Below are positions 6,399 to 9,986 of a stretch of DNA of 11,623 nt, in pieces. Position 1 is the stretch's first letter; every line of letters starts with the position of its first letter. The position numbers were made by a program, and so were the translations under genes. Origin of the DNA: Flavobacteriales bacterium (GTDB lineage Bacteria > Bacteroidota > Bacteroidia > Flavobacteriales > Flavobacteriaceae); NCBI GenBank assembly GCA_002737105.1, contig NSHO01000046.1, forward strand, positions 1 to 11,623. Reading direction: 5' to 3'. Below the pieces are notes generated by a model that saw only the letters and a program-made list of their open reading frames with translations, made no database searches and was not told where the DNA came from.

Positions 6399-6728
6399 AT
6401 GAATGTTGAAAATACAAAAGCACAAATGCGAAAAGGTGTTTTAGAGTTTTGTATCTTATCTGTATTAAAAGAAAAAGACGCCTATACTTCTGAAATTCTA
6501 AACACTCTAAAAACCGCGAAATTACTTGTTGTTGAGGGCACTGTATATCCTTTATTAACAAGATTAAAAAACGACAATTTATTAAAATATCGTTGGGAAG
6601 AATCCACATCTGGGCCACCAAGGAAATATTATGGTTTAACGGATGAAGGAAAAGAATTTTTAAAAGAATTAAACAACACTTGGAGTGAACTATCAGGTGC
6701 TGTAAACATAATAACTACCATAAAATAA
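6399..6728 (+). CDS. PadR family transcriptional regulator
   Basis: The protein is a small winged-helix DNA-binding protein of 109 residues, the short (PadR-s1) type. The N-terminal helix KAQMRKGVLEFCILSVLKEK leads into DAYTSEILNTLK, then the recognition segment VVEGTVYPLLTRLKNDNLL and the wing WEESTSGPPRKYYGLTDEG, all strongly diagnostic. The C-terminal helix (about 85-109) is the short dimerisation helix. In Bacteroidota genomes such PadR genes often precede PspC-domain genes, as here: pspC starts 6 bp after this stop codon, so the two are surely co-transcribed. It probably represses its own operon through the palindrome over the promoter, releasing it on envelope stress; the signal it senses is unknown. 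The start ATG at 6399 gives the usual N-terminal length. Confidence 0.93.
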   Translation: MNVENTKAQMRKGVLEFCILSVLKEKDAYTSEILNTLKTAKLLVVEGTVYPLLTRLKNDNLLKYRWEESTSGPPRKYYGLTDEGKEFLKELNNTWSELSGAVNIITTIK

Positions 6729-6734
6729 AAGGTT

Positions 6735-8477
6735 ATGAACAAAACAACAAGTATAAATTTAGGCGGCTATTTCTTTCACATTGACGAAGACGCTTTTAGA
6801 AAATTAAGCAACTACTTTGAGGCCTTAAGAAAATCATTATCTCCAGATGGAAGAGAAGAAATTATAAATGATATCGAAAGTAGAATTTCTGAACTTTTTA
6901 CAGAAAAATTAGGTACTACTAAACAAGTTATAGGCTTAAAAGAAGTAGATGATATTATAACGATAATGGGGCAACCAGAAGATTACAAAATTGAAGATGA
7001 AACATCAAATAATGAAAACTCATTTAGTAACTTTACTAAATCAATTTATATAAATAAAAAATTATACAGGGATAAGGAAAACTCATTTTTAGGAGGTGTA
7101 ATGTCCGGTTTAGGGCAATATTTAAGTGTTGACCCGTTATGGCTAAGAATTATAATGGTAATTTTATTCTTCGGCTTTGGTACAGGATTAGTATTGTATA
7201 TAATTTTATGGGTTTTAATTCCAGAAGCTTTAACTACTTCTCAAAAACTTGAGATGAAAGGAGAACCCATCAATATTTCAAACATTGAGAAAAAAGTAAA
7301 AGAAGGTTTTAATGAAATCTCTGATAAGTTTTCTAACTTAGATCACGACAAAATTACTTCCAATGCAAAAAATGGTGCCGAAAGAATTGGAAATACATTA
7401 AGTGAAATTGTTACTTCAATATTTAATATAATTTCAAAAATAATAGGCGTATTTATAGTGCTTTTTACTAGTATGACTTTAATTAGTGTGATTATTGGAG
7501 GAATTGCTATGATATTTTTCTCATCTATGCCAGATAATTTCCTATACAATCATATTCACACTCCTTTTAGTTTCGAAACGCCTATTTGGATTCAAGGAAT
7601 ATTATTAATTATAGTTGTTGGAATTCCTTTGTTTTTCTTATTAATCTTAGGGTTAAAATTACTTTCAACCAGAATGAAATCAATTGGAAATTCTATAAAT
7701 TATTCGCTATTAGCCATTTGGATTATCGGATTGGCGTCCTTGTTGTTTTTAATTATAAAAGAAATTAGTCAAAATGCATATTCCGCTAAAGATATAGATA
7801 AAGTAGCTATCAATATAAAACCAACAGATACCTTAACTATTAAATTTATTTCAAATAATTTATACGGCAAAGACAATTACGATTATGAAAATTTTGAAGT
7901 TATTCATGATGATACTGATAAAGAAATAATATTTTCAAATAATGTATTTATAAAAATAGTTGAAACCACTGAACCAAATGCTTTTCTTCAAATAGAAAAA
8001 TCAGCTGAAGGAAAAAGTATTAAAAATGCTAAACAAACTGCTGAAAAAATAAAATACAACGTTAAAATTGAAAACAAAAACTTAATTTTAGATAATTATT
8101 GGATTACAGAATTAACAAATAAAAAACATGACCAAGAAGTAGAGTTGTTTTTATATTTACCAAAAGGCACAATCTTTAAAGTGGACAAAAACTTCAAACA
8201 ATTTGACAGATCTGATAACGATTATTTTAATTTACATCATAGTTCAGATACTTATATTTACATAGTTGCAGAAAACAAAGTATTATGTACCAATTGCCCG
8301 CTTGATGAAGATGATGAAGAAACCAATGTTATAAACGTCTCAAGTGAAATTTTTGGAAATAACAGAGTAGAAACTACTACTATTGAAAATGATAGTATTG
8401 AAAAGGTTTCAGTAAAAGTAAACGTGAACGGAAATGAAATAATAAAAACTGAAACAAAAACCAGAACATTTAATTAA
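6735..8477 (+). CDS. PspC domain-containing membrane protein
   Basis: The 580-residue protein begins with a soluble N-terminal region (1-100), whose segment 40-85 (EEIINDIESRISELF ... VDDIITIMGQPEDY) resembles the HAAS/DUF1700 type of N-terminal domain. The PspC domain lies at about 107-165: KKLYRDKENSFLGGVMSGLG, then YLSVDPLWLRI and the hydrophobic stretch ending YIILWVLIPEA. Three more membrane segments follow, at about 229-262, 284-310 and 324-342. The C-terminal 235 residues are soluble and contain a CxxC pair (C518, C521) followed by an acidic run. E. coli PspC is a much smaller envelope-stress sensor, so only the PspC module is shared. It is co-transcribed with padR. A role in sensing or buffering membrane stress is inferred; which side the C-terminal domain faces is uncertain. 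Confidence 0.88.
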   Translation: MNKTTSINLGGYFFHIDEDAFRKLSNYFEALRKSLSPDGREEIINDIESRISELFTEKLGTTKQVIGLKEVDDIITIMGQPEDYKIEDETSNNENSFSNFTKSIYINKKLYRDKENSFLGGVMSGLGQYLSVDPLWLRIIMVILFFGFGTGLVLYIILWVLIPEALTTSQKLEMKGEPINISNIEKKVKEGFNEISDKFSNLDHDKITSNAKNGAERIGNTLSEIVTSIFNIISKIIGVFIVLFTSMTLISVIIGGIAMIFFSSMPDNFLYNHIHTPFSFETPIWIQGILLIIVVGIPLFFLLILGLKLLSTRMKSIGNSINYSLLAIWIIGLASLLFLIIKEISQNAYSAKDIDKVAINIKPTDTLTIKFISNNLYGKDNYDYENFEVIHDDTDKEIIFSNNVFIKIVETTEPNAFLQIEKSAEGKSIKNAKQTAEKIKYNVKIENKNLILDNYWITELTNKKHDQEVELFLYLPKGTIFKVDKNFKQFDRSDNDYFNLHHSSDTYIYIVAENKVLCTNCPLDEDDEETNVINVSSEIFGNNRVETTTIENDSIEKVSVKVNVNGNEIIKTETKTRTFN

Positions 8478-8506
8478 TTTTTAACATTCATTTCACTATT
8501 AATACT

Positions 8507-8514
8507 TAATTTTG
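8507..8514 (+). promoter_or_regulatory. -7 box (TAnnTTTG) in front of the 24-codon ORF
   Basis: TAATTTTG matches the consensus exactly and lies 31 bp upstream of the small ORF, inside the gap after pspC. A 12-bp palindrome, AGATT-TT-AATCT (8519-8530), lies at the predicted transcription start. This would give the small gene a promoter of its own as well as read-through from pspC. Confidence 0.5.
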
Positions 8515-8545
8515 CTTGAGATTTTAATCTATAAACCTATAAATC

Positions 8546-8620
8546 ATGATACAATTTATAATTAAAATAATAGATATTGCTGTGAAAATAGTAATACAAT
8601 TTATAGAAAGTATTTTTTAA
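8546..8620 (+). CDS. Small amphipathic helical peptide (24 aa), unrecognised
   Basis: ATG at 8546 opens a 24-codon frame ending in TAA at 8618. The peptide begins MIQFIIKII and ends VIQFIESIF. Polar residues fall at Q3, K7, D10, K14, Q18, E21 and S22; nearly everything else is Ile, Val, Phe or Ala. The 4-3-4-4-3 spacing puts all polar side chains on one narrow face of an alpha helix, the shape of membrane-surface peptides such as phenol-soluble modulins or type I toxin peptides. The IQFI motif and the DNA word ATACAATTTATA occur twice. It has a TAnnTTTG box 31 bp upstream and a strong terminator 42 bp downstream, giving a transcript of about 170 nt. I do not recognise a family. It is either a real membrane-active small protein linked to the PspC operon or a small RNA with a chance ORF; the regular helix pattern favours the former. 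Confidence 0.5.
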   Translation: MIQFIIKIIDIAVKIVIQFIESIF

Positions 8621-8661
8621 CATCTTTTTTTAAAGTTAAAAATTCTAATATCATAACATAG

Positions 8662-8689
8662 AAATCCCGATTTTTTCGGGATTTTTTTT
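8662..8689 (+). terminator. Intrinsic terminator after pspC and the small ORF
   Basis: A perfect 9-bp stem, AAATCCCGA with TCGGGATTT (8662-8670, 8676-8684), encloses a T5 loop and runs into eight T residues (8682-8689). It is oriented for the plus strand and closes the padR-pspC-small ORF unit. Confidence 0.9.
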
Positions 8690-8691
8690 AA

Positions 8692-8699
8692 TATATTTG
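8692..8699 (+). promoter_or_regulatory. -7 box (TAnnTTTG) for the DUF2807 gene
   Basis: TATATTTG matches the consensus exactly and lies directly after the terminator T-tract, 25 bp before the ATG at 8725. The predicted leader is about 20 nt. The -33 region would overlap the terminator stem and shows no clear TTTG. Confidence 0.6.
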
Positions 8700-8724
8700 T
8701 ACTTAAAATTTAAAAAACACAAAA

Positions 8725-9564
8725 ATGATAAAATCAATTACACTTTTCGTTATTACGTTGTTTAGCTTTTCAGTTGCAACAGCTCAAACTAAGTTAGAAA
8801 AAATTAAAGGTTCAAAAATTGTCACCATTTCTGTAAAAGAAGTGGAAGAATTTGAGCAGGTAGAAATTGAAGAATTTTTAGATGTCTATTTTGTAAAAGG
8901 TGCGAAAACATCTATAGAAATTGAAGCGGATGACAACTTGCACGATATTATTAGCTATAAAATAGTTGGAAAAACCCTTAAATTAACAGCATTAAAACAA
9001 CCAGTTGGCGAGAAAAAAATGGCTATTAGAGTAAATTATAACGATAGCTTAAAAACAATTGTAGCTCGACATGAAAGTAAAGTTAATGCCATTGCCGATA
9101 TCTCGTTAGCAAATATTACAGTTAAAAACTTTGACAAATCGCAATCTTATTTAAATGTAAAGTCTACAAATTTTACTTTAATTATGACAGATAAATCGAA
9201 AGCAGAAATCAATGTGCAAGCAGAAAAATCTGTTGTAGAATTAAGTAAAGACGCAAATTTAAAAGCATTAATTGCCTCACCAGAATCAAAAGTAGATTTA
9301 TATCAAAAATCGCAAGCAACTATTGAAGGTGATGCACAAATTGCCAAAATAAGATTGGACAATAATTCTAGTTTAGTGGCTAAAAAATTTACTGTTATTG
9401 ATATGGAATTAATTGCAGAAGGCTACACATCGTGTTCCGTTAATGCGCAAAAAACAATTGAAATTTCTGCTTCAGGAAACGCGCAAATTGACTTATTAGG
9501 TGAACCAAAAGTAGATTTAAAGATTTTTACAAACACTGCTACTATATCTAAAAAAGTGAAATAA
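8725..9564 (+). CDS. Secreted DUF2807 (head-GIN domain) protein
   Basis: The 279-residue protein has a signal peptide (MIKSITLFVITLFSFSVATAQ, split as a Lys-positive start, a hydrophobic core and an ATAQ cleavage region), so it is exported to the periplasm or envelope. The mature part (about 45-265) is built of short beta strands with recurring Asn/Lys/Ser turns, as in the DUF2807 'head GIN, putative auto-transporter adhesin' family. The opening around EFEQVEIEEFLDVYFVKGAKTSIEIEADDNL (about 44-74) matches the family's usual first strands. The rest is likely a right-handed parallel beta structure. Despite the family name, adhesion has not been shown. DUF2807 genes are often next to PadR/PspC genes in Bacteroidota, suggesting a shared envelope-stress role. 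Here it has its own promoter, and a 14-bp gap to the next gene suggests a two-gene unit. Confidence 0.85.
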   Translation: MIKSITLFVITLFSFSVATAQTKLEKIKGSKIVTISVKEVEEFEQVEIEEFLDVYFVKGAKTSIEIEADDNLHDIISYKIVGKTLKLTALKQPVGEKKMAIRVNYNDSLKTIVARHESKVNAIADISLANITVKNFDKSQSYLNVKSTNFTLIMTDKSKAEINVQAEKSVVELSKDANLKALIASPESKVDLYQKSQATIEGDAQIAKIRLDNNSSLVAKKFTVIDMELIAEGYTSCSVNAQKTIEISASGNAQIDLLGEPKVDLKIFTNTATISKKVK

Positions 9565-9578
9565 AGCAGTAGCTTCAA

Positions 9579-9986
9579 ATGAAAAAAGACATAATTATTC
9601 CAGAAGTAGAAAATGTATATGTTGTGGCTATTAAAGAATGGAATGAAGATTTTGGTGAAAACACTTGGTATGCCTACTTATTAAATAACACTTCAGAAAA
9701 ATTAGAAATGGCTATGGTGGTTTCTAGTGCCTCTGGAATAATTAATGGCGAAGAAAGAAAAACAGGAAATTTTCGTCACGCTTTTAATGAAGTGCTTCCT
9801 GAAACAGCTATAAAAATTGAATTATTAGAAAACAATGTTTTGCAATTAAACAATCATTTTATGCTTACTTATTTTCTAAACGAAAAATTATACGATAAAA
9901 ATTTCACTTTTGAAGCAAATTCCATAATAGAGGAAAATATTACCGAATTACATAAAATAAATCGTTTTGGAGTGATAGGAAAATAA
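9579..9986 (+). CDS. Conserved hypothetical protein, function unknown
   Basis: The 135-residue protein has no signal peptide or membrane segment and looks cytoplasmic, alpha/beta and acidic. It opens with MKKDIIIPEVENVYVVAIKE and contains WNEDFGENTWYAYLLNN, split here, then alternating strands rich in hydrophobics (LEMAMVVSSASGI, VLQLNNHFMLTYFL). It ends with FTFEANSIIEENITELHKIN. I recall similar proteins in Flavobacteriaceae, sometimes labelled 'phenylalanyl-tRNA synthetase subunit alpha'; nothing in this sequence supports that name, as it lacks class II synthetase motifs and is far too short. The gene starts 14 bp after the DUF2807 stop codon, so it is probably co-transcribed with it. No terminator was seen between it and the downstream mannosidase gene. 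Confidence 0.75.
   Translation: MKKDIIIPEVENVYVVAIKEWNEDFGENTWYAYLLNNTSEKLEMAMVVSSASGIINGEERKTGNFRHAFNEVLPETAIKIELLENNVLQLNNHFMLTYFLNEKLYDKNFTFEANSIIEENITELHKINRFGVIGK

Follow-up and report, generated by a model that had tools for sequence, protein, structure and literature searches.

A conserved 24-codon gene beside pspC in Flavobacterium that encodes a predicted amphipathic membrane helix

A survey of Enterobacteriaceae has described 67,297 clusters of intergenic ORFs under purifying selection, mainly hydrophobic (PMC11188072). The type I toxin TisB has 29 amino acids, with a hydrophilic face formed by D5, K12, D22, K26 and K29 together with Q19 and a net charge quoted as +1 (PMC11449926). 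At the level of envelope sensing, the HAAS-PadR dyad has been proposed as an alternative to two-component signalling (PMC11237479), and in F. psychrophilum a TAnnTTTG sequence at -12 to -5 is the -7 box of sigma-A promoters (PMC9723704).

The DNA analysed here, called the window, is a stretch of 11,623 nt from a Flavobacteriales bacterium (contig NSHO01000046.1). On its + strand, a padR-like regulator gene (6399-6728; PF03551, E = 5.4e-19), the expected partner of the HAAS domain, is followed by pspC (6735-8477), encoding a protein with HAAS, PspC, LiaI/LiaF-TM and Toastrack regions according to its Pfam matches. A 247-bp gap (8478-8724) separates pspC from a DUF2807 gene of the head GIN or Toastrack type (DUF2807b, 8725-9564, + strand; PF10988, E = 5.7e-23). 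By Pfam, the padR-pspC neighbourhood matches a HAAS-PadR / PspC / LiaI-LiaF-TM / Toastrack system. The gap contains a 24-codon ORF (8546-8620, + strand) for the peptide MIQFIIKIIDIAVKIVIQFIESIF, predicted to be an amphipathic membrane helix; the earlier note on this DNA gave the coordinates, the amino acid sequence and the extent of the gap correctly. Behind DUF2807b, positions 9579-9986 encode a 135-residue protein for which neither Pfam nor NCBIfam gives a match (E up to 1); it is present in L001-L006 and L023 and not in the DNA examined from L007-L019.

Relatives and coding evidence

Bacterial genomes were scanned with PspC, and the sequence following pspC was read in 30 of the best 80 of 121 loci. 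An ORF of the same kind, 24 codons long and placed before DUF2807b as in the window, is found in 22 of the 30. The other eight comprise L020, where pspC is followed by a different gene, together with L025-L030 and L032, which were read to 420 bases past pspC; among the remaining 50 of the 80 loci, the sequence ends inside pspC in L021, L031 and L071. The peptides form two sequence groups, MIQF..K..D and MIKL..Q..E, and the L120 peptide (MIQVIVKVIEYTIQLVVQFIESIF) has E at position 10 and is otherwise of the first type. A narrow profile (A1) missed the second group, whose members were recovered by reading upstream of DUF2807b. Twenty-six further profile rows were far weaker than the true ones (E 5e-4 to 2.8), and at the 13 loci inspected among them, two of which are one place, no 24-codon ORF with an ATG start matches the profile along its length.

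In all 28 sequences (27 loci and the window) the frame runs for exactly 24 codons and then stops, and the relatives have neither the internal stop codons nor the frameshifts that the earlier note had named as evidence against the gene. Its proposed check for synonymous-biased substitution gives a mean pN/pS of 0.21 in the window's group (9 sequences, all distinct) and 0.23 in the second group (19 sequences, 17 of them distinct). We also compared 14 hand-chosen pairs, one sequence being used twice so that the pairs are not strictly independent, and counted 47 nonsynonymous and 81 synonymous differences in the peptide gene; random placement of the same changes gives an expected 92.4 nonsynonymous differences (SD 4.4), and none of 5000 simulations came as low as 47. 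Of 23 sites each, codon positions 1, 2 and 3 have 12, 2 and 20 variable ones in the first of the two groups compared and 14, 3 and 22 in the other. (One alignment of the peptide loci omits L008, L013 and L017, for display alone.) From these substitution patterns we firmly conclude that the ORF at 8546-8620 is a genuine protein-coding small gene under purifying selection at the protein level.

With a profile built from 27 sequences, 22 of the 398 Flavobacterium genomes sampled prove to have the peptide, in one copy each, over all 24 positions and with no stop, and nothing further is found there at E up to 0.001. Among 395 genomes sampled across the order, the reference G007 alone matched. A tblastn search with the window's peptide at E up to 1 finds nothing among 72,556 plasmid and 50,697 phage records. 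At the same threshold there are no matches in Pfam (window's peptide and 27 members), in NCBIfam (window's peptide), or in PHROGs and PADLOC (two peptides), and the PDB sequences contain no match to the peptide. In these samples it was found in one part of Flavobacterium only, in single copy, and it lies beside pspC in all cases examined. Two of the loci, L001 and L002, come from MAGs titled Chryseobacterium gleum and cluster tightly with the window among Flavobacterium loci in three trees; judged by this placement, their species labels look wrong.

The tie to pspC, proposed in the earlier note from the window, extends to the relatives: all 22 profile-found peptide genes stand beside pspC, which lies within about 1.5 kb of upstream flank. 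A further DUF2807 gene (DUF2807a) is placed between pspC and the peptide in L003, L004, L007-L019, L022 and L024, and none is placed there in the window, L001, L002, L005, L006, L023 and L120. In G637 the peptide remains with pspC and DUF2807a, with DUF2807b 17.7 kb away. Since the link survives both the absence of DUF2807a and the distant DUF2807b of G637, PspC is the constant partner and neither DUF2807 gene is, DUF2807b being the usual, non-obligatory downstream neighbour.

Flanking signals, gain and loss

The peptide gene has a predicted promoter of its own with the layout TTAACA-N20-TAATTTTG. The -7 box TAATTTTG (8507-8514, + strand), of the published sigma-A type TAnnTTTG, lies 31 bp before the ATG, as the earlier note had it; the -33 element TTAACA (8481-8486, + strand) is an addition to that description. 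All 28 loci have one TAnnTTT[A/G] box 21-43 bp upstream of the ATG, ending in G in 3 of them and in A in 25, and in 20 of the 28 a TTAACA precedes the box by exactly 20 nt, both counts being of AT-rich patterns without a chance control and in related, therefore non-independent, loci. With the box at 8507-8514, the F. psychrophilum position (PMC9723704) predicts a transcription start near 8519 and a transcript of about 172 nt, ending at an intrinsic terminator (8660-8691, + strand) that has an 11-pair stem at 8660-8686 followed by a T run. Terminator scoring found two terminator-like sites, which are one hairpin read on both strands, compared with 0.1 in shuffles. The stem begins 39 bp after the stop codon (the 42 bp given before counts from the G+C core), and a hairpin with a T run also follows the ORF in relatives, as judged by eye. 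Rfam gave no match at gathering thresholds. Directly after the terminator comes TATATTTG (8692-8699, + strand), a -7-like box for the next gene.

The sequence AGATTTTAATCT (8519-8530), described previously as a 12-bp palindrome, consists of two 5-bp arms and a 2-bp spacer and is kept by L001 alone among eight aligned relatives; we rejected it as a conserved element, and it is most likely a chance feature. A 28-bp inverted repeat, TTTAACAAA-N10-TTTGTTAAA, lies between pspC and the promoter-like site in L005 (5241-5268) and at the same place in L006 and L023. It was rejected as a general operator, being absent from the window, L001-L004 and L120, and it is a possible operator in the three loci that have it. 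Upstream of DUF2807b, nine loci (L007, L009, L012, L014, L016, L022, L024, L114 and L117) contain, with small variations, a TTTGGAA(C/T)AAA-(A/T)TTTGTGTA(A/T)GTTTGTG block. It differs from the simple TATATTTG box of the window and might represent a promoter for an alternative sigma factor.

In genomes that lack the peptide, the usual order is DUF2807a, a terminator close behind it, and then DUF2807b, and in many such loci the terminator is likewise followed by a -7-like box. The gap before DUF2807b is 217-311 bp with the peptide (27 loci) and 17-326 bp without it (median 73, in 17 of 19 measurable loci, a few of the 17 having a different upstream gene or a DUF2807b start that is probably placed too early). 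The gap sizes and the terminators of the peptide-less loci suggest that the promoter and the ORF were added ahead of an older terminator. The 326-bp gap belongs to L130 and contains an apparent degenerate remnant of DUF2807a, as seen by eye; in L173 the DUF2807b match has one internal stop.

A DUF2807b query from inside the peptide group matches 77 of the 398 genomes at E up to 1e-80, comprising the 22 peptide carriers and 55 non-carriers. Sixteen of the 30 best DUF2807b loci were read, of which 15 are peptide-less (one from a genome already examined) and one is the relocated copy of G637; for the remaining genomes, absence of the peptide rests on the profile search. Some close relatives, forming a group, have retained pspC and both DUF2807 genes but have no peptide. 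The peptide is consequently not universal at the pspC locus, and not universally required.

A single gain without loss fitted a 46-row tree with one change and was dropped once closer relatives were added. The DUF2807b tree of 61 rows needs two changes, with one change sufficing in 0% of 200 bootstrap trees, and DUF2807b alone does not rule against a single carrier clade (p-AU = 0.41). A tree of DUF2807b and the PspC C-terminus needs three changes and rejects one carrier clade (p-AU = 0.004); it joins two genes of possibly different history, uses 44 of 47 loci, and leaves out the peptide-less L126, L130, L131, L133, L135, L138-L142, L144, L145, L165 and L177, as well as L152. In this combined tree L019, on a long branch, is placed among peptide-less rows. 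A well-supported group (support 100/99) has 39 rows, 27 with the peptide and 12 without. The simplest reading of these trees would be one gain within the genus, at the base of the 39-row group, followed by one or two losses; transfer between lineages, or conflict between the DUF2807b and PspC histories, is possible. No source sequence for the peptide gene was found, and a de novo origin is possible. Related genomes with and without the gene, the carriers including named cultured strains such as Flavobacterium terrigena DSM 17934 (L023) and F. cucumis DSM 18830 (L010), offer a natural comparison for the gain and loss of a micropeptide at a stress sensor.

Polar stripe and proposed role

The polar residues of the window's peptide are Q3, K7, D10, K14, Q18 and E21, as the earlier note stated. 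They cluster on one helix face (P = 0.0001) and give a high hydrophobic moment (P = 0.0005), each against 10,000 permutations of the same residues. The spacing is kept across the relatives: each of the 23 distinct peptides has polar residues at positions 3, 7, 10 and 14, position 21 is polar in 22 of them and position 18 in 21, and position 22 is Ser, Asn or Thr in 21. The remaining positions are non-polar except for Thr12 (two peptides), Thr17 (one) and Tyr11 (one). Position 10 is acidic in every peptide, Lys3 goes with Gln7 in 15 and Gln3 with Lys7 in 8, and 21 peptides have a net charge of -1, the other two, one of them the window's own, being neutral (0). Mean hydrophobicity on the Eisenberg scale is 0.51-0.71, and the hydrophobic moment is 0.44-0.55, with a permutation P of at most 0.001 for each of the 23. 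The membrane-binding helix proposed earlier is borne out as far as composition goes, and we infer that it sits in the cytoplasmic (inner) membrane.

Our tentative proposal, to which we would give slightly less than an even chance, is that this lineage-specific micropeptide sits in the inner membrane and acts as a modulator of the HAAS-PspC-LiaF-Toastrack sensor. Its polar stripe would pack against the transmembrane region of PspC, or the peptide would self-assemble beside PspC, and it would thereby tune the sensor, which is thought to signal via the PadR regulator. Expression from a separate promoter would allow the cell to adjust the peptide:PspC ratio independently of the pspC transcript. 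We favour this role because the gene keeps its position next to pspC, has a promoter-like site of its own and encodes a peptide whose polar stripe is conserved. Several points weigh on the other side. Adjacency to pspC may not mean shared function; relatives with pspC, DUF2807a and DUF2807b and no peptide indicate that PspC is able to work without it; the separate promoter and terminator mean that co-expression with pspC is not obligatory; and the stripe could equally serve self-assembly or lipid binding.

A bolder version is speculative and rather unlikely. It would have a genus-born peptide without traceable ancestor built into the PspC/HAAS-PadR sensor, with promoter and ORF arising in front of a terminator that was already there, and the peptide setting the sensor's threshold as an antiparallel polar-zipper helix of symmetric build. 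If true, such a peptide would be a natural counterpart of random-library peptides, which reportedly act on a membrane sensor kinase. The link to pspC is what makes the peptide worth specialist attention, and its fixed place there makes it a concrete and testable candidate for a small protein that regulates the PspA-free envelope-stress systems of Bacteroidota.

Possible, if on the unlikely side, is a peptide that acts as TisB does, its monomers assembling via the polar stripe and lowering the proton motive force under stress, with slow growth or tolerance as the outcome. Size, hydrophobicity and the single hydrophilic face resemble TisB, the polar positions lie almost symmetrically around the centre of the peptide (3/21, 7/18, 10/14), as an antiparallel dimer would want, and in 23 of 23 peptides positions 3 and 7 are occupied by one Lys and one Gln, in either order. 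The net charge of -1 or 0 departs, however, from the +1 quoted for TisB, and one copy per genome at one locus, with no plasmid or phage match to the window's peptide, is a pattern unlike that of many toxin modules. Between -170 and +230 of the ATG, an antisense TAnnTTTG box occurs in 0 of 9 sequences of the window's group and in 10 of the 19 second-group sequences, where six have it at -12 to -18 and four at -68 or +86; on these counts, an antisense antitoxin promoter box is not a general feature of the family, though an antisense antitoxin is possible in part of it, and an antitoxin RNA might also be encoded in trans or use another type of promoter.

The high hydrophobic moment and narrow polar face would also suit a lipid-packing or curvature-binding helix that lies in the membrane surface and stabilises the membrane without contact to PspC. 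We regard this as doubtful: the linkage to pspC would require a separate reason, and the hydrophobic face covers most of the helix, which would fit burial better than surface lying.

The order of ORF, terminator and DUF2807b recalls a leader peptide whose translation would control read-through into DUF2807b. Many peptide-less loci, however, also have a terminator before DUF2807b, then a TAnnTTTG-like box, so the terminator looks older than the ORF; G637 keeps the peptide with no DUF2807b behind it, and selection on a helix pattern would not be expected of a leader. Such a role appears very improbable. Hardly more can be said for the secreted modulin-like or antimicrobial peptide that the earlier note had entertained and that found no support here: a short amphipathic helix without a leader would suit it, against which stand the net charge of -1 or 0, the constant linkage to pspC, and the absence of a transporter gene adjoining the ORF in the window, the ABC-transporter-like pair at 414-2752 being 6 kb away on the other strand. 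A non-coding small RNA with an accidental ORF, or a chance ORF, is scarcely credible, for in spite of the predicted transcript of about 172 nt, its strong terminator and a fold z-score of -3.8 (terminator hairpin included), the substitutions concentrate at third codon positions and largely avoid second ones, and frame and length are kept in 28 of 28 sequences.

Comparison with described systems

In the titles and abstract openings that were searched, many subscription papers being outside this scope, no small Flavobacterium peptide or PspC-linked micropeptide was found. The genes neighbouring the peptide form a system of the HAAS-PadR / PspC / LiaI-LiaF-TM / Toastrack kind, and the available part of the report on such systems (PMC11237479) mentions no 24-residue peptide. 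De novo membrane peptides, in the available parts of their descriptions (PMC7005711, PMC6550523), are likewise short hydrophobic ORFs in AT-rich DNA with no detectable relatives elsewhere; the Flavobacterium peptide differs in its lasting conservation and purifying selection. With TisB, as far as the available text describes it (PMC11449926), it shares small size, hydrophobicity and a hydrophilic helix face of charged residues and Gln, a likeness of features and not of sequence, and it differs in its linkage to pspC, its net charge of -1 or 0, and the lack of any antitoxin RNA found.

The closest resemblance in kind is to the smORF microproteins of Enterobacteriaceae, as set out in the available text of Fesenko et al. 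(PMC11188072), with which the comparison is by description only. The gene has 24 codons, within the 15-70 of that class, lies in an intergenic gap of 247 bp, and is under purifying selection on its peptide; the product is hydrophobic and potentially transmembrane, and synteny serves as evidence in both cases, whereas the peptide comes from a different phylum. This work adds a well-supported 24-residue gene family that matches no model in four family libraries. Set beside the PMC11188072 catalogue by description, the peptide is a new family of a known kind, the intergenic hydrophobic microproteins.
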